Assembly (NCBI GenBank): GCA_025210805.1
Contig: JAOAQX010000032.1
Span: 62,001-126,000 of the forward strand
Length of the DNA: 64,000 nucleotides
Direction of reading: 5' to 3'
Source: Flavobacteriales bacterium
GTDB taxonomy: Bacteria > Bacteroidota > Bacteroidia > Flavobacteriales > CAJXXR01
Under the pieces are notes generated by a model, which was not told where the DNA came from, did not search any database, and was given only the letters and a program-made list of their open reading frames with translations. Shown piece after piece: positions 10,490 through 48,726 of this stretch; within the stretch, counting starts at the first letter, position 1; the number at the start of each line of letters is the position of its first letter. A program made the translations under genes and the position numbers.

Positions 10490-10534
10490 TTTTATTTTGG
10501 ATGTTTTGTGCAAAATAAAGCATCCAAAATAAAA
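10490..10534 (-). promoter_or_regulatory. Stem-loop abutting the carbonic anhydrase start codon
   Basis: A perfect 14-bp inverted repeat, TTTTATTTTGGATG/CATCCAAAATAAAA (10490-10503 with 10521-10534), fills most of the 65-base gap between the response-regulator gene and the carbonic anhydrase and ends four bases before its ATG. It may act as a weak terminator of the upstream operon, a leader hairpin masking the start, or an operator. There is no U-tract after it in the leftward direction, which argues against a plain terminator. Confidence 0.5.
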
Positions 10535-10550
10535 AATGAGGTGATTTTAA

Positions 10551-11264
10551 TTACAAGCCTTCTTCTTTTATTTTATCAATTAGCTGTGCTTTTATCCCAC
10601 GGGATATTGGGAGTCTTTTTCCGTTGAAAAATCCTTCATTTCCTTCAATAAATTCTAAGAAGTCTGTATTGCCAATATAACTTTTGTGGATTCTGAAAAA
10701 ATTATTTTTTGGTAATCGATCTTCTAGATCTTTCATTTTTTCTAAAACAATAAATTGCTCTTGAGTGGTGTGAATAATAATATAGTTCCAAGCTCCCTCA
10801 ATATATACAATATCTTTTGTGAAAATTTTTATTTGTTTTTTTTCCACTTTAAGAAAGAGATAGTCTTTTTTTTCTTTGTTTTCAGGAATAAATGATGCTT
10901 TATTTAGCCGATTTAAAGCCTTATCTGTTGCCTGAATAAATTTGATATATTCAATAGGCTTTAATAGGTAGTCCACAACATTTAAGTTAAAACCTTCAAG
11001 AGCATATTCAGGATTAGCAGTTGTCATGATAATTTCAGACTGAGGCTTGAGTTCCTTTAAAAAATCGATACCAGACATTTCAGGCATATGAATATCCAGA
11101 AAAATAATTTGAGCATCAGTATAAGCTTTTGTTCCAATAAAGTCAACAGGTGAAATATAAGAGCCGATAAGCTCTAAGTTCTCATGTTTGGTAATATATT
11201 CTTCCATAAGTTGACTTGAAAGTATTTCATCTTCTAGAATTACACACTTAATTTTTTCTGACAT
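10551..11264 (-). CDS. LytTR-family response regulator
   Basis: A 237-residue two-domain regulator: a receiver domain (about 5-120) with acidic pocket ED at 11-12 and phospho-acceptor Asp57 in IIFLDIHMPEMSG, and a C-terminal LytTR DNA-binding domain (about 135-235) with the typical YLFLKVEKK, IVYIEGAWNYIII and FFRIHKSYIGN segments. It starts 12 bases after the histidine-kinase gene stop and is surely its partner. The pair is the 3' end of the sphingolipid operon, so it may sense or control envelope lipid state; that is inference from position only. Confidence 0.92.
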   Translation of the reverse strand: MSEKIKCVILEDEILSSQLMEEYITKHENLELIGSYISPVDFIGTKAYTDAQIIFLDIHMPEMSGIDFLKELKPQSEIIMTTANPEYALEGFNLNVVDYLLKPIEYIKFIQATDKALNRLNKASFIPENKEKKDYLFLKVEKKQIKIFTKDIVYIEGAWNYIIIHTTQEQFIVLEKMKDLEDRLPKNNFFRIHKSYIGNTDFLEFIEGNEGFFNGKRLPISRGIKAQLIDKIKEEGL

Positions 11265-11276
11265 AGAGAGAATTGC

Positions 11277-12380
11277 TTAGTCTTTATTTTTCAAAATTAA
11301 GCATATTTTAAACACTTCACTATCTTCGGTTATTTCTAAATTGTATTGATTTGGATAGAGTAGTTTTAATCTTTTTGTTAAATTTTCCATTCCAATTCCT
11401 CCTACATTTTGAACAAGGGTTTCTTTATTGTATTCTGCAATTGAATTTGTGATTTCTAATTGAATTTTTTGACTATCAGCTTCTATTTTAATAGAAATAT
11501 AGGCAGAAGGTACCCTTTGGATCGCACTGTGCTTGAAGGCATTTTCCACAAGAGGTTGAAGGATCATAGGCGCAATATTATTTTGATGATTAATTATATA
11601 ATCAAAATCTACATTCATTTCTCTAGAAACTTTCAGTTTTTGAAAATCTATATAACTTTCTAGATATTCAATTTCTTTTTGGAGCGAAACATAATTCTGA
11701 TTACAATCATAGAGTACATACCTTAACATTTTTGATAACTGCATAATCTTTTCGGGAGCTCGTTCATCTTTTAAATAACTGATACTGTATATGCTACTAA
11801 GTGCATTGAAAAGAAAGTGTGGGTTTATCTGATTTTTTAGTATTTGTAATTCAGATTCTGTTTGAAGACTTTTAAGGGTACTTAAATCCTTTTGAGTGCT
11901 TTTGTTTTTTTCTTGACTGTATTTTAGCTGAGCAGCCAAGGTGGCGATACTCATATACATCATTGTAAATGCAAAATACATAAACCAATCATCCCTAACA
12001 ACTTCCAGAATTCCAGAATTCCTAAGGTCTTGAAAGTTTAGTGAGCTTAGAATAGATACGTATTCAAAAAGATATATTTGGACAAATGAGGAGACTAAAA
12101 GAATTGGAATTCCATACTGAATATATTTTTTGAGTAATTTGATTTTATTAGGTAAATACTTTACTTGTAAATATTGTGTTCCATAATAGACCACGGAGCT
12201 AAAAAAAGTAAGCATAGTAACTTGAATATGATTAATGATTTTGAGCTCAAAATAGTTCTCTGGAAAGAGCATTTTAAAAAATCCCCAAACCAGAACCCAG
12301 ATAAGTATTTCTAAACCTTTAATTTGCGATATCCGCCACTTCAGATACTTTGTGAATCGGTCTGTATGAGATGGTTCCAT
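11277..12380 (-). CDS. LytS/YehU-type membrane sensor histidine kinase
   Basis: The protein (367 residues) has four predicted membrane segments (about 22-40, 52-70, 88-108, 133-152) and the His_kinase domain of the LytS family, with phospho-acceptor His188 in NQINPHFLFNALSS, then an HATPase region containing MILQPLVENAFKH and VGGIGMENLTKRL. The start at 12380 lies 62 bases inside the end of the upstream reductase gene; the next in-frame ATG (residue 37) would remove the first membrane segment, so the long overlap is probably real. It phosphorylates the LytTR regulator encoded 12 bases downstream. The signal is unknown. Confidence 0.88.
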   Translation of the reverse strand: MEPSHTDRFTKYLKWRISQIKGLEILIWVLVWGFFKMLFPENYFELKIINHIQVTMLTFFSSVVYYGTQYLQVKYLPNKIKLLKKYIQYGIPILLVSSFVQIYLFEYVSILSSLNFQDLRNSGILEVVRDDWFMYFAFTMMYMSIATLAAQLKYSQEKNKSTQKDLSTLKSLQTESELQILKNQINPHFLFNALSSIYSISYLKDERAPEKIMQLSKMLRYVLYDCNQNYVSLQKEIEYLESYIDFQKLKVSREMNVDFDYIINHQNNIAPMILQPLVENAFKHSAIQRVPSAYISIKIEADSQKIQLEITNSIAEYNKETLVQNVGGIGMENLTKRLKLLYPNQYNLEITEDSEVFKICLILKNKD

Positions 12381-13290
12381 ATAATTTTTTGCTTGTACAC
12401 TTCCAATTTTTAGAGGTGACTTCTCGATATTTTTCTACAGAATTCATAGGACTGATGATTCCTAATTTTTGTTGAATATATGCAATTGTAAATAAAAGAA
12501 ACTTAGGGATTACAATTCTTAATCTAATTTTCTTTTGCAATTCTTGGGCAATTGTATTAAAAAAAGCTGTTGTATTGTACTCGTTTCCATCAGAGAGTAA
12601 AAAAGACTCATTAATAATTGAAGTGTCCAATAACTCAAAAGTAATTTTGGAAACATCATCGGCATGAATAAACGATAGTGATTGGTTCTTTTCGCCTAAA
12701 TAAAATACGACTCCTTTTTTTATTGCCGATACGAGTATATCATAATCATTACTGCCTTTTCCATAAACAGCTGTAGGTCTTAGAATCAGGTATTCTATTC
12801 CTGTATTCTTGAGGTGTTTTTCTGCTAAAGCTTTACTTCTTCCATAGGGCGAAATAGGCTGAACAGTTTTTTTCTCTGTAATATTTTCTCTACTAATTGG
12901 ATTTCCTGGTCCCAAAGCCGCCAAACTACTGATAAATACAAAGCGACCCTTTAGAATTTTTTCTTCCTTGAGAACCATAGCAAGGTCTCTTGTAAGGGTA
13001 GCGTTGTATTTGTAGAATGTTTCAGATTTTACCGCATCTTTTACTCCTGCATTATGAATAATATGATCAAAAAAACCTGCTTGAATATTGGCTTTTTCAA
13101 AGCTTTCTCGAATGGAGCTTGTAGATCTATAATCTATCGTGATGAACTGGATATTATAGGTAGAAAGATGCGCTGTTTTGCTACTTTTACGAATAGCAAG
13201 GTACACTTCATAATTCCTTTCTAGAGCTTCTTCTATGAAATACTTTCCTATAAATCCAGTACCTCCTGTTATGAGTATTCTTTTTGTCAT
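12319..13290 (-). CDS. NAD(P)-dependent epimerase/dehydratase-family reductase, candidate 3-ketosphingolipid reductase (CerR-like)
   Basis: An extended-SDR protein of 323 residues: nucleotide-binding TGGTGFIG at 8-15, active-site SS near 121-122 and YGRSK with Tyr149 and Lys153. In bacterial ceramide synthesis, an SDR of this class reduces the 3-keto group after serine palmitoyltransferase has acted. The gene lies four bases after the GNAT-like acyltransferase gene and two genes after serine palmitoyltransferase, which is the main reason for the assignment; the sequence alone would only say NAD(P)-dependent oxidoreductase. It overlaps the histidine-kinase gene by 62 bases. Confidence 0.75.
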   Translation of the reverse strand: MTKRILITGGTGFIGKYFIEEALERNYEVYLAIRKSSKTAHLSTYNIQFITIDYRSTSSIRESFEKANIQAGFFDHIIHNAGVKDAVKSETFYKYNATLTRDLAMVLKEEKILKGRFVFISSLAALGPGNPISRENITEKKTVQPISPYGRSKALAEKHLKNTGIEYLILRPTAVYGKGSNDYDILVSAIKKGVVFYLGEKNQSLSFIHADDVSKITFELLDTSIINESFLLSDGNEYNTTAFFNTIAQELQKKIRLRIVIPKFLLFTIAYIQQKLGIISPMNSVEKYREVTSKNWKCTSKKLYGTISYRPIHKVSEVADIAN

Positions 13291-13294
13291 TTAC

Positions 13295-14401
13295 TTATAG
13301 TTCCTTTTTATAACAGCGTCTTTTTTTGTGGAGTTCAGGCGATAAATGTTTAAACATTCCTTGAACTTCAAGATTCGTTTCAAGTTGAATATTTGTTTCA
13401 ATTCTTTTGATCCCAAAATCACGGGCATTATCCCATATTTCTTGCATCATAATGGCATTGATCCCTTTTTTACGCCATTCTGGTTCAATGGCTACAAGGT
13501 AAAGATCTAAAACATCATTTTTCTTCAAGGCACTCAACATATGGTACCATCCAAAAGGAAGGAGCTTTCCTTTTGCTTTTTGTAAGGCTTGCGTAAATGA
13601 AGGCATGGTAATCCCAAAGCCTACAAGGTTTTTATCTTCATCCTCAATTAGACGAATAAGATTCAAGTTGATAAAAGAGAAATAGTTTTCTGCATAATAT
13701 TGTTTTTGACCTTCTGTTAACTCCGTAAATCCATAAAGGTGTGCGTAGGATCTATTGATAAGGTCAAATATTTTCGGAATATATGGTTTAATTTCTTTTT
13801 TATTTTTGAACTCAATAGAACGTACGCCGTAGTGATTTTTCACAAATTTTGCCAGTTTTCTTATTCGTTCTGGAAACTGTTGAGTTAAATCCATGCTGTA
13901 TTCTATCCAGTCAATGCTTTTTTCAAATCCATAGGCTTCAAAATGTTCCACATAATATGGGAAATTATAAAGTGTAGCCATGGTAGATTCTTTGTCAAAT
14001 CCTTTGTAAAGAAGTCCTTGTCTGTCCATATCTGTGAATCCTAGTGGTCCATGAACATGGCTCTTTCCTTTTTCTTTTAACCAAGCAGTCGCTGTATCAA
14101 AAAGACTTTTAGAGATTTCATAATCATCGATAAAGTCAACCCATCCAATTCTTCCAAATTCGGGTTCGGGTTCTTTTTGATTAATTATCGCTGCAATACG
14201 ACCAACTATTTGCCCATTTTTGTAAGCTAACCATGCTTGAAATTCACAAAATTCAAATGCGGGGTTCTTCTCTGTTAGAGTTTTGATTTCATCAAAGTCT
14301 ATAGGAAGGGCACATTGTTTATTTTCTTTATAAAGATCTGTGTAGAATTTTATGAAGCTTTTGAGTGCTTTTTTATTTTGTACTTTTTTTATTTCAATCA
14401 T
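13295..14401 (-). CDS. GNAT-like N-acyltransferase, candidate bacterial ceramide synthase
   Basis: A 368-residue protein whose C-terminal half looks like an acyl-CoA N-acyltransferase: LYLVAIEPEWRKKGINAIM (acyl-CoA loop region) followed by ETNIQLETNLEVQ. The N-terminal half contains HVHGPLGFTDMDRQG and YNFPYYVEHFEAYGFEK, stretches I associate with the conserved Bacteroidota family found beside serine palmitoyltransferase. In Caulobacter a protein of the GNAT superfamily (bCerS) acylates the long-chain base; the position between serine palmitoyltransferase and a CerR-like reductase makes the same role likely here. It starts 35 bases after the upstream gene. Confidence 0.75.
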   Translation of the reverse strand: MIEIKKVQNKKALKSFIKFYTDLYKENKQCALPIDFDEIKTLTEKNPAFEFCEFQAWLAYKNGQIVGRIAAIINQKEPEPEFGRIGWVDFIDDYEISKSLFDTATAWLKEKGKSHVHGPLGFTDMDRQGLLYKGFDKESTMATLYNFPYYVEHFEAYGFEKSIDWIEYSMDLTQQFPERIRKLAKFVKNHYGVRSIEFKNKKEIKPYIPKIFDLINRSYAHLYGFTELTEGQKQYYAENYFSFINLNLIRLIEDEDKNLVGFGITMPSFTQALQKAKGKLLPFGWYHMLSALKKNDVLDLYLVAIEPEWRKKGINAIMMQEIWDNARDFGIKRIETNIQLETNLEVQGMFKHLSPELHKKRRCYKKEL

Positions 14402-14436
14402 GGGTAATGCTTTAGAGTTAAGAAATGAGGATAAAT

Positions 14437-15651
14437 TTATGAAGGTTTTACAATTTTTGAAATCTCTTCAATAGCGTATTTAATTTGTTCCTGCGTATGT
14501 GCTGCGGTAAGTGAGAACCTCAATAATGCATCGGTTTCTTTTACTCCAGGAGCTACTACAGGGTTTACATAGATTCCTTTGTCAAAAAGTGCTTTTGCTA
14601 CTAAAAATGTTTTTGCACTATTTCTAATATAAATAGGGATTATCGGTGTTTCTGCTGCACCAATATCTAAGTCTTTTTCTTTAAAGAGTTTCATGGCAAA
14701 ATATGTGTTTTCCCAAAGCTTTTGCTGTAACGAATCATCTCTTTTCATGATTTTTAAAGCAGCAATTGCACTTGCAGTAGATGCTGGTGGAAGACTCGCT
14801 GAAAACATATATGTTCTGGCAACATGGGATAAATAATCAATCATTTGTTGGCTTCCAGCTATATATCCACCTACAGAAGCTAATGATTTACTAAACGTTC
14901 CCCCAATAAGATCAACCTCATCCGTTAGTCCAAAATGAGAAGAAGTCCCTGCACCATTTTTTCCAATAACTCCTAATGCATGTGCACAATCTACCATTAC
15001 AAGGGCATCATGTTTTTTAGCTACGGGAATTATTTCATCAAGTTTTGCAATGTCTCCATCCATGGAGAAGATTCCATCCATTACAATGAGTTTTTTCTTG
15101 TAATCTCCCGTTGAAGTAATATTTTTAAGTTTTTTGTCTAAATCTTCTGCTGAATTATGCTTGTATTTAAACCTTTTTGCAAGACTCATTTGACATCCAT
15201 CAATAATGGAGGCATGATTGAGTTCATCCATTAAGATAGCATCACCTCTTTGTGCTACTGAGGGTATTACGCCAGAGTTTACTTGAAATCCTGTGGGAAA
15301 AACAATTACGGCTTCTTTTCCAAGAAAATCTGCCAATTCGGTTTCCAATTCTCTATGAAGATCCAAAGTACCATTCATAAAAGGACTACCAGTACACGAC
15401 GTTCCATATTTATCGATGGCTTTTTGTGCAGCTGCTTTTACTTCTGGGTGATTGTTGAGACCAAGGTAGTTATTGGATCCAAACATTAACACTTCTTGAT
15501 CGCCAAACTTTGCTGTGTCTCTTTGTGCTGAGTAAACTTCTCTAAAGAACGGATAAATATTATTTGATTTTAGTCTTTTTACTCTTTGACAGGTAGCATC
15601 GTCGGTAAGAAATTGATATTCTTTCTGTGTGTTTACAACTTTTTTTTCCAT
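14437..15651 (-). CDS. spt: Serine palmitoyltransferase (alpha-oxoamine synthase family)
   Basis: A PLP enzyme that condenses L-serine with a fatty acyl-CoA (or acyl-ACP) to give 3-ketosphinganine, the first step of sphingolipid synthesis. The 404-residue protein shows SNNYLGLNNHPEV near 59-71, the DELNHASIIDG motif near 142-152, DCAHALG at 221-227 and the PLP lysine Lys255 in GGTFSKSLASVGGY. Family cousins are 2-amino-3-ketobutyrate CoA ligase, BioF and HemA; assignment to serine palmitoyltransferase rests on resemblance to Bacteroidota Spt and on the neighbours (acyltransferase and SDR downstream). The start is two bases after the stop of the LtaS-like gene. Confidence 0.88.
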   Translation of the reverse strand: MEKKVVNTQKEYQFLTDDATCQRVKRLKSNNIYPFFREVYSAQRDTAKFGDQEVLMFGSNNYLGLNNHPEVKAAAQKAIDKYGTSCTGSPFMNGTLDLHRELETELADFLGKEAVIVFPTGFQVNSGVIPSVAQRGDAILMDELNHASIIDGCQMSLAKRFKYKHNSAEDLDKKLKNITSTGDYKKKLIVMDGIFSMDGDIAKLDEIIPVAKKHDALVMVDCAHALGVIGKNGAGTSSHFGLTDEVDLIGGTFSKSLASVGGYIAGSQQMIDYLSHVARTYMFSASLPPASTASAIAALKIMKRDDSLQQKLWENTYFAMKLFKEKDLDIGAAETPIIPIYIRNSAKTFLVAKALFDKGIYVNPVVAPGVKETDALLRFSLTAAHTQEQIKYAIEEISKIVKPS

Positions 15652-15653
15652 AA

Positions 15654-17468
15654 CTAATTCATAATTGGTTTAAGGTTCATGCCTAAAATTTTTGATACTT
15701 CTTGGTCAAACGGAATTTTGGTTGATTCTTTTCCGTCTATGCTCTGTACCGTATAGTATCGGGTGGTGTTATTATTTTGTATTTGGTAAACACCATTATA
15801 ATAATTGATAACCATTTCTTTAGATTGACTATCAAATAAATCATTTCCTAGTATGTTTTTGGGTTTTGGAATGCCCAATTCTCCCAAAATAGTAGGGAAA
15901 ATATCGAGTTGTTGTGCGAGTCTTTTTGAGTTTCCTTTTAAAGATTCATTTCCTGGTTCATAGAAGAAAATAGGAATAGAAAACCCTCTTTCAGCTGTCT
16001 TGAATTCTTTTCTTAGTGGATGAATAGAGTGATCTGCAACAATAACAAATAGCGTATTCTGATACCAAGATTGCTTTTTAGCTGTTTCAAAAAACTTTCT
16101 CAATGCCATATCGCTGTACTCTATAGCTTTGTATATAGCTAATTCTCCACCTTCAAAAGAGCTTTCATACTTATTTGGAATTTTACAAGGATTGTGACTA
16201 GAAAGCGTGAAAACCGTTGAGAAAAATGGTTTGTTTAGCGTTTCTAATTCTTTTGCGACAAATTGAAGGTATGGTTCATCCCAAATACCCCAAGTTCCAT
16301 CAAAATCTTTTTTTGGTGTAGGGTATTCCTTCATTCCGTAGTATGCATCAATACTGTTTTGTTTTGCATAGCGATCAAAATCCATTGAGCCATTTTGGGC
16401 AGCATGAAAATAGGAAGTATGATATCCATTGGCTTTCATCACAGAAGGTAGTCCACTAATTTTTTCAAATTTTTTACTTGCTAATATAAAGGGGACTTCT
16501 AGAGCGGGAATAGAATTCCAGATGGCAGGAATCGCATCCATACTTTGTCTTCCATTAGAAAAAGCATTTTCAAATAGAAAGCCTTTTTGAAATAAAGAAT
16601 CCAAAAAGGGTGTATAGCTTTTTTCTGTATATGGATTGAGCTTTTGAGTTGCCTCACTTGCAAAACTTTCAAGAACGATCAATAATACATTTTTATTTGT
16701 GGAAGAAGAGTCCACAGTGCGTTTAGGCTCTGGGTAGTGAATGGCTAATGTTGGATTTTCAACTGGTTGCTTGTAGTCCCACAAGAAATTATAGGGTGTG
16801 TTTATCGCTAAGGCAACTTGGTGAGGGTTCTCAATGCCATCTACAACTGCTTCAGAGGGTTTTAAGAATCCGTTAAAAACATTATACCTGTTTGAGGTAA
16901 AGGTTAAAATAACTAAAGTCCAAACAAAAATTTGCGAGAGTGCAGATTTTAAAGGTGTTTTGGAAATAACATAAGCTCTAAAATCAGGGAAAAATTTGAT
17001 TAGAAAATATATAGAGAAAATAAAAATAATAAATCCATACCAATATTCTTCAATGAATTGAACATTTAGAGAATCCATATTTTTTTGGGTCTCCAGATAG
17101 TCAAAAAAGGAAGTATTGAGTCTTTTGAATGTGTAAGGATAATAGAAGACATCAATAAAATTGATGAAAATCATGAGGCTATTTGTAATCACATACCATG
17201 TTTTTAATACAAATCTCATTGGATTTGTAAAACTAATACGATAGGGCAGTAGCCAAAAAATGAGTAGAAATAGGCTATTGACAAATAGGACCATAAATAG
17301 ATCGAACCTAAAACCTAACCAAAATGTGTGGACTTTGGTTGCAAAAGATAAGAGTTCAAAATACTCATAGTTTTCAAAAAAGAATACGAATCTTACCAAC
17401 ATCATCAGCAATGTGGGTAAAAGGAGAATAATCGGTATTTTAGATAATTTTTGTTTCATGTTCTTCAA
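15654..17468 (-). CDS. LtaS/sulfatase-fold membrane phosphotransferase
   Basis: A 604-residue protein with five predicted N-terminal membrane segments (within 10-190) and a large periplasmic alkaline-phosphatase/sulfatase-fold domain. Metal and active-site stretches are visible: VLLIVLESFASE (metal-binding Glu267), SNGRQSMDAIPAIW (candidate nucleophile Ser309, where lipoteichoic-acid synthases have Thr), FSTVFTLSSHNP and VIVADHSIH. Enzymes of this family move phosphoglycerol or phosphoethanolamine groups onto envelope molecules. Placed two bases before serine palmitoyltransferase, it is a good candidate to add a polar phospho head group to ceramide. That role is inference. Start codons at 17468 and 17459 are both possible. 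Confidence 0.85.
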   Translation of the reverse strand: MKNMKQKLSKIPIILLLPTLLMMLVRFVFFFENYEYFELLSFATKVHTFWLGFRFDLFMVLFVNSLFLLIFWLLPYRISFTNPMRFVLKTWYVITNSLMIFINFIDVFYYPYTFKRLNTSFFDYLETQKNMDSLNVQFIEEYWYGFIIFIFSIYFLIKFFPDFRAYVISKTPLKSALSQIFVWTLVILTFTSNRYNVFNGFLKPSEAVVDGIENPHQVALAINTPYNFLWDYKQPVENPTLAIHYPEPKRTVDSSSTNKNVLLIVLESFASEATQKLNPYTEKSYTPFLDSLFQKGFLFENAFSNGRQSMDAIPAIWNSIPALEVPFILASKKFEKISGLPSVMKANGYHTSYFHAAQNGSMDFDRYAKQNSIDAYYGMKEYPTPKKDFDGTWGIWDEPYLQFVAKELETLNKPFFSTVFTLSSHNPCKIPNKYESSFEGGELAIYKAIEYSDMALRKFFETAKKQSWYQNTLFVIVADHSIHPLRKEFKTAERGFSIPIFFYEPGNESLKGNSKRLAQQLDIFPTILGELGIPKPKNILGNDLFDSQSKEMVINYYNGVYQIQNNNTTRYYTVQSIDGKESTKIPFDQEVSKILGMNLKPIMN

Positions 17469-17471
17469 TGC

Positions 17472-19943
17472 TTAAAAACTCACTTCTATTCTTAATTTTA
17501 AGGCGGATCTTCTTCCTAATTGCTTATAGAAAGGACCTTTATTGAGTCTTGTAACATATTCTAATCTCAATACTTTGAAGATATTACTCACACCAATACC
17601 TATTTCCATATAAGGTTCGTTTTGTGGCTTGTTTAGGTTCGGATGTGCATCAATTACCGCATTTGCATTTTGGTCTAACTGTCCATAGAACATTTTAAAT
17701 GAAGCCGCTTCTCTAATTTTGAGTTTTCTTAGTAAAGGGATTTTATTGAATAACACACCTCCACCATTCATATTGATATGTAAATTACTGTATGTAGTAG
17801 CAGAGAGTGAATAATTATCTAATAAATTATAAACATATCTTCCTGCAGCAAAACCTTGTAGAGACTGTGGGTTATACATTAAATTATAAGGAACTTTTCC
17901 GAAGATTTTACCCACATCAAAATAAGTTTGAAACTTGATGGTTTCTAAGTAAAACACTTTTTTAAAACTGGCGTTGAGGTGGGCATAGTTTGCAGTGCTT
18001 CCATCAGGGAGTTTTGTGTTTCCTATTTCTGATATAAAATGATAAACAGGCTTTACTCCTCCAAAATAGAGTCTATTAAAGAACTGTTGGTCAAAATCGG
18101 TGTCTTTAGAGTATCTAAAGTCAAACATCACACTTCGGTTATCTAAATAGTCGAGGTTTTTCCCTGCTTTTCTAATAGGATTAAACGGATTCCCCGAAAA
18201 TCTTCTGAGTTTTGTTCTCATCAGGATTTTGAAATATGGATTGAATTCTCTAGAAAGGTCGATTCCTAAATATTTTTCTCGAAGAAGATATTCGTTGAAA
18301 TTATTAAACTGAAGCATAGAGAGTACATTTCCTCCACCTTGAGAATAGGGGTTTTCTTGAATAAATTCTAAAAAAGGGTTTCTGGCTAAATCTGTGTAAT
18401 CATCTTTATACTTTATTTTTAGTACAGATCTTTTTTCTTTTGAGAGAAGCAAGGCAAAATTACCTCCCCATTTAAATTCTTTATCTCTTGTTCCATATCC
18501 CAAATACCCACCAATACTGAAGTTTTCACTAAAATTTTTCGAGGTTCTTATGGGAACGTTTATTCTTACGTCTTCTATGGCATTTCTGTAGAACATATCA
18601 AAATAGGGTCCGATATCTATTTTATTTGCTTCATAATAACCAGAAATAGTCATTCCAGCCAGTCTGTCAATTGTTTTGAAATATTGATTGTCTTTCAGTG
18701 AGGTAATTCCAGCTAATACTTGGTCTTGGTTTGCAGCAGAGATTAAAGTATCTCGAGAAAGTAGATGCTCGAGTTTTTTATTATTCGTACTCAGAATATT
18801 CAATGGTGCTCCTTTTTCTCTTGGTTCTTGAAAAGAAACTTCTTTTTGCATTTGAAATTTTCTACTTTCTTGATCTTTGCTAATAGAGAGTGTTGCGTAA
18901 GTATTGATATTGGATAAAAACCATTTTTTTGCTTTATTCTGAGCATAAGAATAAGCCACAGAATAATCGTGAATGAAGTTTACATTTGCCGATACAGGAA
19001 TAACAGCCGTGATGTTCTCTATGGCGTAAGTTTTATTATTGATCCAAAACTCTCCTTCAAAAACAGGATTCATTCTGTTTTTTGGATAATATTCCATTTT
19101 ATAAGAGGTGGAGGAATCATCATTTTTTGTACTATCAGTTATATACATTTCATAGTGCAGTTTCCAAGAAGAAGAAACAGGACTCGGAAAGGCTTTGTCA
19201 AAAATATAGACAAGGTTATGGTAAAAGTTTAGGTTGTCTGCAACTTTATTTCCTACAACATCACTAATGAATCCGTCGGTATTTTCTAAAACAGTCTTTT
19301 TGTCTTTTTTTATGAGTTTACGAGTTTCGTCGCCATCTGTTTTTTGGTAATCATACAGTTCTTCCGTAAACATGATGGGCAACATATAGGTACCCTTTTT
19401 TTTGTTTTTAATAAAAGCACCTTGGCTATTTTTATAGCGCTTATGTTTTTTTGTTTCTTCATCAATATTAGAGAGTAAAACAGAAGTTTTTTCGGTTTCT
19501 AATAGTTTGATGTTTTGGGTATTTTCTGGGTTATTTTTCTTTTTATTTTCAATCACTTGATCCATTAAGAGTTCTTCTTGACTAAAATCAGGAGTGAGAA
19601 TAATTTCGGTGAGTGTGTTTTCTTCTTCTTTGAGCTTAACTAAAAGAAATTTTGGAAGGGTTTTTATTAGGTATTGCTTTGTTTCGTACCCTATATAAGA
19701 AACTTCAAGTGTGTCTCTTTTTTTTACTTTTTTTAGAGAAAGTTCAAATTTTCCATCAAGATCAGTTGAAGTACCTTTGGTTGAGTTTTTTACCACAACA
19801 TTTACCCCAATGAGTTCTTCACCTGTTTGAGAGTCTACAATCTTACCTGATAGATGCTTTTTTTGCCCATACATAGGAGTTAACAACAAGATAAAACTTA
19901 GAATTAACAACCAATTTTTACTAATCAAATTACTCTTCACCAT
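17472..19943 (-). CDS. DUF5686 outer-membrane protein with carboxypeptidase-regulatory-like domain
   Basis: An 823-residue protein: signal peptide ending near MYGQ (residue 27), a carboxypeptidase-D-regulatory-like domain (about 28-110, with GKIVDSQTGEELIGVNV and GTSTDLDGKFELSL), and a long remainder typical of the DUF5686 family, predicted to be outer-membrane beta-barrel at the C-terminus (ending LKLRIEVSF). Members are abundant in Bacteroidota and their function is not established. The gene precedes the LtaS-like gene by three bases and so heads the sphingolipid operon; a role in moving or placing the finished lipid in the outer membrane is conceivable but unproven. Confidence 0.83.
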   Translation of the reverse strand: MVKSNLISKNWLLILSFILLLTPMYGQKKHLSGKIVDSQTGEELIGVNVVVKNSTKGTSTDLDGKFELSLKKVKKRDTLEVSYIGYETKQYLIKTLPKFLLVKLKEEENTLTEIILTPDFSQEELLMDQVIENKKKNNPENTQNIKLLETEKTSVLLSNIDEETKKHKRYKNSQGAFIKNKKKGTYMLPIMFTEELYDYQKTDGDETRKLIKKDKKTVLENTDGFISDVVGNKVADNLNFYHNLVYIFDKAFPSPVSSSWKLHYEMYITDSTKNDDSSTSYKMEYYPKNRMNPVFEGEFWINNKTYAIENITAVIPVSANVNFIHDYSVAYSYAQNKAKKWFLSNINTYATLSISKDQESRKFQMQKEVSFQEPREKGAPLNILSTNNKKLEHLLSRDTLISAANQDQVLAGITSLKDNQYFKTIDRLAGMTISGYYEANKIDIGPYFDMFYRNAIEDVRINVPIRTSKNFSENFSIGGYLGYGTRDKEFKWGGNFALLLSKEKRSVLKIKYKDDYTDLARNPFLEFIQENPYSQGGGNVLSMLQFNNFNEYLLREKYLGIDLSREFNPYFKILMRTKLRRFSGNPFNPIRKAGKNLDYLDNRSVMFDFRYSKDTDFDQQFFNRLYFGGVKPVYHFISEIGNTKLPDGSTANYAHLNASFKKVFYLETIKFQTYFDVGKIFGKVPYNLMYNPQSLQGFAAGRYVYNLLDNYSLSATTYSNLHINMNGGGVLFNKIPLLRKLKIREAASFKMFYGQLDQNANAVIDAHPNLNKPQNEPYMEIGIGVSNIFKVLRLEYVTRLNKGPFYKQLGRRSALKLRIEVSF

Positions 19944-20163
19944 TTATATGTTCTTTCGAAGGCTATAACTATTAAACTTCTGAATTGAATGTGACTATTC
20001 ACGGTGCTAAATTAAGACAACAATTTGTTAACTTTAAATTAATATGATAAGTAGTCTTAAATTTTGTGTGAAATGCAATTTTATCGTGTAAGTGGTGATT
20101 TTGGTATTTATATGGATTGTAACATTTTTGCCTGAAGGTTGAAAATATTGGTGATTTAAGCAA

Positions 20164-47121: not shown

Positions 47122-48726
47122 ATGAAAACACACATTGCTCAAAATCAAACATTTAAGCTATCTGTATTTTGTTGTACATTTACTTGGATATTTTTATTGT
47201 TTACAATAGGTACAACCGCACAAGTAGGGATTGGTACAACTAATACGCATCCTTCAGCAGCATTACATTTAGAATCAACAACCAGAGGTTTTTTACCTCC
47301 TAGAATGACTACAGCACAGAGGAATACAATTATTACACCTGCCTCAGGACTAATGTTGTATAATACTACAGAGAATTGTCTGCAAATAAATACAGGGACT
47401 CCCCAAGCTCCAATTTGGACATGCTTAGGTAAATTAGGAGGACCATCTATTACAAGTTTAGATTGTGCAGGAGCATCACATTCTGGTAATATGACACAAG
47501 GTTCAGCCGCAAATGTTTCCTCATCAATAAATTATACTGGAGGAAATGGGGGTAATTTCACAGCAATCACGGCTAACTCAACGGGAGTAACAGGTTTAGT
47601 GTTAACAATAGGAACAAACACACTTGCAAATGGAAATGGATCAGTAACTGCTACAATATCAGGAACTCCAGCAACCTCAGGGACTGCGAATTTTAATATC
47701 ACCCTAGGAGGGCAAACTTGTACCTTACAGAGAAATGTAACACCACCAGCTACAGTAACAACTTTAGGCTGTAATACTGCATCACATTCAGGTAGCATAA
47801 CACAAGGTGCAGCTGCAAATGTTTCTTCGTCAATAAGCTATACTGGAGGAAATGGACAAGCATTTAATACCATTACATCGAACTCCACAGGAGTAACAGG
47901 CTTAGTGTTAACAATAGCAGCAAACACACTTGCAAATGGAAATGGATCAGTAACAGCTTCAATAGTAGGTACATCAGCTACTTCTGGAACTGCGAGCTTT
48001 AGTATCACTTTAGGAGGGCAAACTTGTACTCTTACTCGAGTTGTCTCGCCTCCTGTTACAAATGTAGCATCCTGCCTAAGTACTTCAGCAACAACGATAG
48101 TTGATGTTACCTCTCCATACACAGGAAAAGTATGGATGGATAGAAACCTTGGTGCATCTAGAGCTGCGATATCAGGTACAGACAATATGGCTTATGGTTG
48201 TTTATTTAGATACGGTGCAAACTCAGCTCCTGCTATTACTTGGAGTACAACACATGCAACATTAGCTGCTGGTCAGTCTTACAATTCTCATACTTCGGGG
48301 GGGGATCCTTGCCCTACAGGATATAGAATCCCAACACGTGATGAATGGCATGATGAACTTAGAGCATTTGAACTTGCGATAGATGTTGTCGGGGTCAACA
48401 GTGTTAATGCGCATTATGTAGGGGCATGGGATAATACAATACCAGGTAATGCCAATAGATTTTTCTTAAAGATACCATTCGTAACAGGAAATGTGGCTAC
48501 AACTTCAGGAACTTTACCTTCATTCCCTGCAGCTGGAAGTGAAGATTTCGGTGCTCTATATTTGCATGTTACTGCGAATGTAGGTATCACCCCATCACCA
48601 ACTTTTCATACTAATGCAGTTTTTCGAGGAAAACCAGGGGCAGCCGGTTTGGTTTCCTCTACTTATACTAATGTTAATTCTGCACCTAATTTTTCAGTAG
48701 TTCCAGTAAGATGCATTAAAAATTAA
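47122..48726 (+). CDS. Secreted protein with two internal repeats and a FISUMP domain
   Basis: A 534-residue protein with a long signal peptide (cut near TTAQ, residue 34), then QVGIGTTNTHPSAALHLES and GFLPPRM, the same N-terminal module as in the gene at 7147-8712. Two repeats of about 95 residues follow (about 112-205 and 212-305), each with ASHSG, INYTGGNG, STGVTGLVLTI, NTLANGNGSVTA and LGGQTCTL. The C-terminal part (about 320-534) is a FISUMP (Fibrobacter major paralogous) domain with GKVWMDRNLGASR and DPCPTGYRIPTRDEWH. Probably cell-surface or released. It is the one large intact gene of the island and has its own promoter and terminator. Confidence 0.83.
   Translation: MKTHIAQNQTFKLSVFCCTFTWIFLLFTIGTTAQVGIGTTNTHPSAALHLESTTRGFLPPRMTTAQRNTIITPASGLMLYNTTENCLQINTGTPQAPIWTCLGKLGGPSITSLDCAGASHSGNMTQGSAANVSSSINYTGGNGGNFTAITANSTGVTGLVLTIGTNTLANGNGSVTATISGTPATSGTANFNITLGGQTCTLQRNVTPPATVTTLGCNTASHSGSITQGAAANVSSSISYTGGNGQAFNTITSNSTGVTGLVLTIAANTLANGNGSVTASIVGTSATSGTASFSITLGGQTCTLTRVVSPPVTNVASCLSTSATTIVDVTSPYTGKVWMDRNLGASRAAISGTDNMAYGCLFRYGANSAPAITWSTTHATLAAGQSYNSHTSGGDPCPTGYRIPTRDEWHDELRAFELAIDVVGVNSVNAHYVGAWDNTIPGNANRFFLKIPFVTGNVATTSGTLPSFPAAGSEDFGALYLHVTANVGITPSPTFHTNAVFRGKPGAAGLVSSTYTNVNSAPNFSVVPVRCIKN

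Follow-up and report, generated by a model that had tools for sequence, protein, structure and literature searches.

Among the described systems close to the operon examined here is BT_1522-1526, for which inositol ceramide synthesis has been shown through knockouts (PMC9246714). In Caulobacter, the spt-bcerS-cerR pathway relies on a serine palmitoyltransferase (Spt), an acyltransferase and a reductase (PMC11087976), and its head groups require the cpg genes and glycosyltransferases, with no mention of an LtaS-family gene (PMC11324152). In the literature we found, no gene for phosphoethanolamine or phosphoglycerol ceramide has been assigned in Bacteroidota (PMC10191378, PMC9246714, PMC8791184; subscription literature was possibly missed), nor has any protein been credited with carrying bacterial sphingolipids to the outer membrane.

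We analyzed a 64,000-nt stretch of contig JAOAQX010000032.1 from a Flavobacteriales bacterium, referred to here as the window, which contains a seven-gene run on the minus strand (19943-10551). The run has the three-enzyme logic of the Caulobacter pathway, accompanied by genes for a DUF5686 protein, an LtaS-family protein and a two-component pair. Domains were assigned with Pfam and NCBIfam profiles, and the features are listed 5′ to 3′ along the operon:

19944..20163, minus strand: intergenic stretch ahead of DUF5686, presumed promoter region
17472..19943, minus strand: DUF5686 outer-membrane protein (Pfam PF18939, 69.7 bits against a gathering cutoff of 39.2)
15654..17468, minus strand: LtaS-family sulfatase-fold membrane phosphotransferase (PF00884, 136.8 bits)
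14437..15651, minus strand: Spt, serine palmitoyltransferase (417 bits to the Sphingobacterium multivorum Spt, 3a2b)
13295..14401, minus strand: GNAT-fold acyltransferase, candidate bCerS-like ceramide synthase (PF00583, 40.3 bits)
12319..13290, minus strand: extended SDR of the epimerase family, candidate CerR-like ceramide reductase (PF01370, 114.7 bits)
11277..12380, minus strand: LytS-type membrane histidine kinase (PF06580, 82.3 bits)
10551..11264, minus strand: LytTR response regulator (PF04397 and PF00072)
10490..10534, no strand: inverted repeat with 18-base arms, 94% complementary, directly past the LytTR gene

Every gene named in the first-pass annotation was recovered on the minus strand, at or adjoining the coordinates given there; its interval, 12319-19943, encloses the sphingolipid genes, but the two-component pair named in its title falls outside. 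Successive genes are separated by 3 (or 12), 2, 35 and 4 bases, followed by a 62-base overlap between the SDR and LytS genes and a final gap of 12 bases. The LtaS-family gene starts at TTG 17468 or, likelier, at ATG 17459. The inverted repeat is likely the transcript end, and because it comes after the LytTR gene, the LytS/LytTR pair is probably carried on the operon transcript. Ahead of DUF5686, promoter consensus matches did not exceed those in shuffled sequences (43 vs 48) and a search for LytTR sites returned only short repeats; Rfam and tRNA scans gave no match.

The first-pass annotation had made conservation of this neighborhood a test of its proposal, and the neighborhood is conserved. 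In 6/6 other complete loci with an Spt at least 63% identical (L146, Marinifilaceae MAG BB29; L147, Ancylomarina sp. DW003; L303; L304; L305; L306), the DUF5686, LtaS, Spt, GNAT and SDR genes are collinear on one strand, and an accidental neighborhood is rejected by these relatives. In a Labilibaculum MAG (L148), the contig begins at Spt and shows the GNAT and SDR genes together with the gene beyond SDR. The gene after SDR encodes a DUF4833 protein in L146, L147, L148, L303, L305 and L306; it was identified by Pfam in L147 and L306 and by similarity or by matching length and sequence start in the others, and is missing at this position from L304 and the window. For Spt, LtaS and DUF5686 alike, the operonic proteins form a clade with no other members, and the branching matches, with the same two subgroups of relatives in all three trees and the window outside both. 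The closest Spts (63–69% identical) come from Marinifilaceae and from genomes of Ancylomarina's order, and the operon is shared gene for gene across two orders, that of the Flavobacteriales bacterium and that of Ancylomarina. Within the window's own order, Spt was found in only 2/396 genomes, the window's own counted (E 1e-95 or better), which makes horizontal gain likely; base composition is uninformative on this point because the operon, the window and the relatives all have about 33–35% G+C. The other Spt among these 396 genomes (L372, genome G950) lies in an inositol-type cluster and is probably a separate gain.

To place the operon among other Spt clusters, we surveyed 51 Spt loci flanked by 6 kb or more in both directions, a sample of closest relatives that leans to Sphingobacteriaceae. 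A GNAT gene lies near Spt in 42 of these loci and an SDR gene in 38–39, followed by DUF5686 (28), CDP-alcohol transferase (23), MIPS (19) and DUF4833 (16), while LtaS occurs once (Ancylomarina) and LytS/LytTR in none. In Sphingobacteriaceae, Chitinophagaceae and others (L109-L115, L151-L225, L372), we observed Spt-GNAT-SDR together with MIPS-PgpA-GtrA-DUF5686-CDP-alcohol transferase-DUF4833, which looks like a full gene set for inositol ceramide and has a DUF5686 subfamily of its own. The head-group set of these clusters, MIPS-PgpA-GtrA-CDP-alcohol transferase, has the same composition as BT_1522-1526. In a further group of clusters, a lipid kinase adjoins Spt. The operon resembles BT_1522-1526 and the Spt-MIPS clusters in joining a ceramide core to a linked head-group module, and DUF5686 and DUF4833 are likewise Spt-linked in the latter; it differs in carrying an LtaS-family protein rather than MIPS, PgpA and CDP-alcohol transferase, in drawing its DUF5686 from another subfamily, and in having a two-component pair, which the Spt-MIPS clusters lack. 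Because the other clusters keep head-group genes at a constant core, the LtaS-family protein is likely their counterpart, and the operon is likely a new variant of bacterial sphingolipid cluster in which this protein would be the probable head-group module. A counterpoint is that outside the operon's Spt clade, LtaS is found near few Spt loci. Separately, a MAG labelled Williamsia (Actinomycetota; L185) contains a Bacteroidota-type Spt cluster, likely through contamination or misbinning.

The LtaS-family protein shares with the phosphoglycerol transferases LtaS, LtaP and OpgB a membrane-anchored sulfatase-fold catalytic domain and its metal-site residues, and the structures closest to it are VP1736 (3lxq) and LtaS/LtaP, with LtaS structures matched at E 1e-18. 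E267, S309, H425, D479 and H480 of the catalytic and metal site are invariant across 54 aligned sequences. In S. aureus LtaS, Thr300 is the nucleophile, and Trp354 and Arg356 contact glycerol. The corresponding residues in the operonic protein are S309, M362 and F364, so that a Ser stands in for the Thr nucleophile and the Trp and Arg of the Gram-positive glycerol contact are replaced, the latter counting against the head-group role proposed below. The protein also falls far under the NCBIfam LtaS equivalog cutoff (NF053595, 97.7 vs 970 bits). Compared with 47 outside LtaS-like proteins, namely the genome's own paralogue and 46 others, all seven operonic proteins group together in a 55-row tree (support 100/100); the window protein has a long branch, but the grouping is secure in this tree. 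Residues specific to this clade are T392, which adjoins W393, and N426, which adjoins H425, both neighbors being invariant. The structure model (pLDDT 52) is too poor for pocket analysis. The LtaS-family protein is a good candidate for a ceramide phospho-head-group transferase, with phosphoglycerol somewhat likelier than phosphoethanolamine as the head group because the sequence is nearer to LtaS/OpgB than to EptA. The earlier proposal of a dedicated LtaS-type enzyme is well supported as an association, through an operon-only clade in a conserved neighborhood. Elsewhere in Bacteroidota, LtaS-like genes are common, and the non-operonic ones often adjoin a diacylglycerol-kinase-like gene in place of Spt (L262-L264, L273-L277, L289-L298), an arrangement that fits diacylglycerol-releasing enzymes.

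The DUF5686 protein was modeled with AlphaFold2 at moderate confidence (pLDDT 73.6) in three parts: a barrel, a beta domain in the periplasm and, at the N-terminus, a SusC-like domain. The predicted barrel resembles the Omp85 superfamily, with BamA and TamA as the top Foldseek matches (E 1.6e-7, probability 1.00; TMt 0.64 to the TamA barrel), but the protein differs from both in its SusC-type N-terminal domain and apparently in its periplasmic domain, which has no Pfam POTRA match and is modeled as a long-stranded beta fold. In a quick tree with long branches, the operonic DUF5686 proteins form their own clade, distinct from a second Spt-linked clade that comprises Sphingobacteriaceae and others, placing Spt-linked DUF5686 in two separate subfamilies. 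DUF5686 is not named in any paper of the literature searched. TamL, an Omp85 protein of the same phylum, was judged unlikely to be a lipid mover in Flavobacterium johnsoniae (PMC12045153), and an Omp85-like fold alone is therefore no proof of lipid placement. Taking the model together with the two Spt-linked subfamilies, a role for DUF5686 in placing sphingolipids in the outer membrane is plausible. We also observed a tandem pair of DUF5686 genes in a Mucilaginibacter Spt cluster (L152:15516-20945).

The product of 14437-15651 has the AOS fold, and its PLP lysine, K255, is conserved in 98/98 rows of an alignment of related enzymes. It scores 232 bits to the cysteate enzyme, well apart from its match to the S. 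multivorum Spt, and its top-scoring NCBIfam family is NF047600, although it stays under that family's cutoff (545 vs 640 bits). In a 98-enzyme tree, it lies in the operon clade within the Ala-type Spts, apart from the SulA, Kbl and BioF groups, and the same genome has one paralogue each in the SulA, Kbl-like and BioF-like groups. Judged by these sequence features, the protein is a predicted Spt that groups with those of the ceramide type. The GNAT and SDR proteins are candidates for ceramide synthase and ceramide reductase at the level of family membership, the SDR scoring 27.6 bits against a cutoff of 400 for the 3-ketodihydrosphingosine reductase KdsR (NF049977).

Both genes of the two-component pair have the expected domains (His_kinase; Response_reg-LytTR), and the N-terminal part of LytS is membrane-spanning. 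Among 14 genomes, the top matches of the LytTR protein are the regulators of the same operon in G629 and G525 (237 and 234 bits, the next match scoring 178), and a joint LytS and LytTR tree groups the operonic pairs of the window, G525 and G629 with 100/98 support. LytS similarity alone does not separate the operonic kinase from a close paralogue (181 vs 178 bits), whereas the regulator and the joint tree do. Because an orthologous pair occupies the same operon in both genomes, the pair is co-inherited in part of the clade. The idea that the operon has its own two-component system thus holds for the window and two genomes, with the pair outside the universal five-gene core. Nothing supports the further suggestion that the kinase senses sphingolipid state, and no lipid-sensing domain was found in the LytS/LytTR pair.

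Taken jointly, we consider it somewhat probable that this is a sphingolipid operon combining ceramide synthesis, LtaS-type head-group transfer, DUF5686 placement and LytS/LytTR control. Spt would condense serine with a fatty acyl donor, GNAT would add the second acyl chain, and SDR would reduce the keto group to give dihydroceramide. The LtaS-family enzyme, its catalytic domain presumably facing the periplasm, may then use its Ser nucleophile and metal site to take a phosphate-linked head group off a phospholipid, leaving diacylglycerol, and attach it to the hydroxyl of the ceramide. The Omp85-like barrel of DUF5686 may aid placement of the product in the outer membrane, and LytS/LytTR, here probably on the operon transcript, could tune expression to some envelope signal. 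The gene order with its conservation and co-inheritance, the type of Spt and the intact catalytic residues are observed; in this scheme, the substrates and the regulatory role are putative, and the head group and placement are suggested by gene conservation. The operon provides one specific candidate each for the head-group step and for outer-membrane transfer, conserved across two orders. It is conceivable, if rather less than probable, that an LtaS branch became dedicated to ceramide head groups, that DUF5686, as an Omp85-like barrel, was recruited at least twice for sphingolipid placement in the outer membrane, and that two-component tuning was added in some lineages.

These assignments have to be weighed against other products, targets and regulatory ties. 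The cassette product might be a capnine-type sulfonolipid instead of a sphingolipid, given that sulfonolipids are common in the window's order (PMC9304779, PMC12045153) and that capnine lipids abound in a relative, Labilibaculum euxinus, for which ornithine and glycine lipids are also reported; a word search found ceramide and sphingolipid unmentioned in that lipidome paper, whose strain may lack the operon (PMC12927429). The published discriminating position, however, is Ala in Spt and Lys281 in SulA (PMC9304779), and the window Spt carries Ala285 there. Across the 98-enzyme tree, the Spt groups, the window's among them, have Ala at this position, the Kbl-like group has Asn, the SulA group Lys and the BioF-like group Thr, with 4/4 Lys rows forming the separate SulA clade. 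The genome's SulA-type enzyme with the diagnostic Lys is encoded on contig C16 (L003:1360-2643, L130), and a separate Lys-bearing SulA also occurs in three genomes with an operon-type Spt. We therefore reject the sulfonolipid reading of the cassette as very improbable; the genome, having a separate SulA paralogue, probably makes sulfonolipids besides sphingolipids. A more serious alternative, though still unlikely, is that the LtaS-family enzyme modifies lipid A, a glycan or a lipoprotein and owes its location to a shared outer-membrane adaptation. LtaS-like paralogues without Spt neighbors are indeed widespread in Bacteroidota, and operonic and non-operonic catalytic sites are alike save at a few positions, but the operonic subfamily, a clade of its own, was never seen away from Spt in the genomes sampled, and other Spt clusters contain proven ceramide head-group genes.

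Ceramide head-group transfer is our preferred role for the LtaS-family protein. A further rival reading concerns the control of the operon. That LytS/LytTR governs unrelated genes and is merely read through from the operon is a substantial possibility, which we put at somewhat below an even chance: the compared genomes have many LytTR regulators, and the pair, which follows the sphingolipid genes in L303, L306 and the window, is missing from 4/6 other complete loci. Against this reading stand the overlap with the SDR gene, the strong inverted repeat appearing only past LytTR, and the orthologous pairs that two further genomes carry in this operon, which also weaken the idea that the pair is there by accident. 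In L305, a different LytS/LytTR pair (L305:2442-4120) lies directly upstream of DUF5686 in the operon. Elsewhere in the window, a 306-base tandem repeat (47473-48035) falls within the gene at 47122-48726, which possibly encodes a repetitive surface protein.
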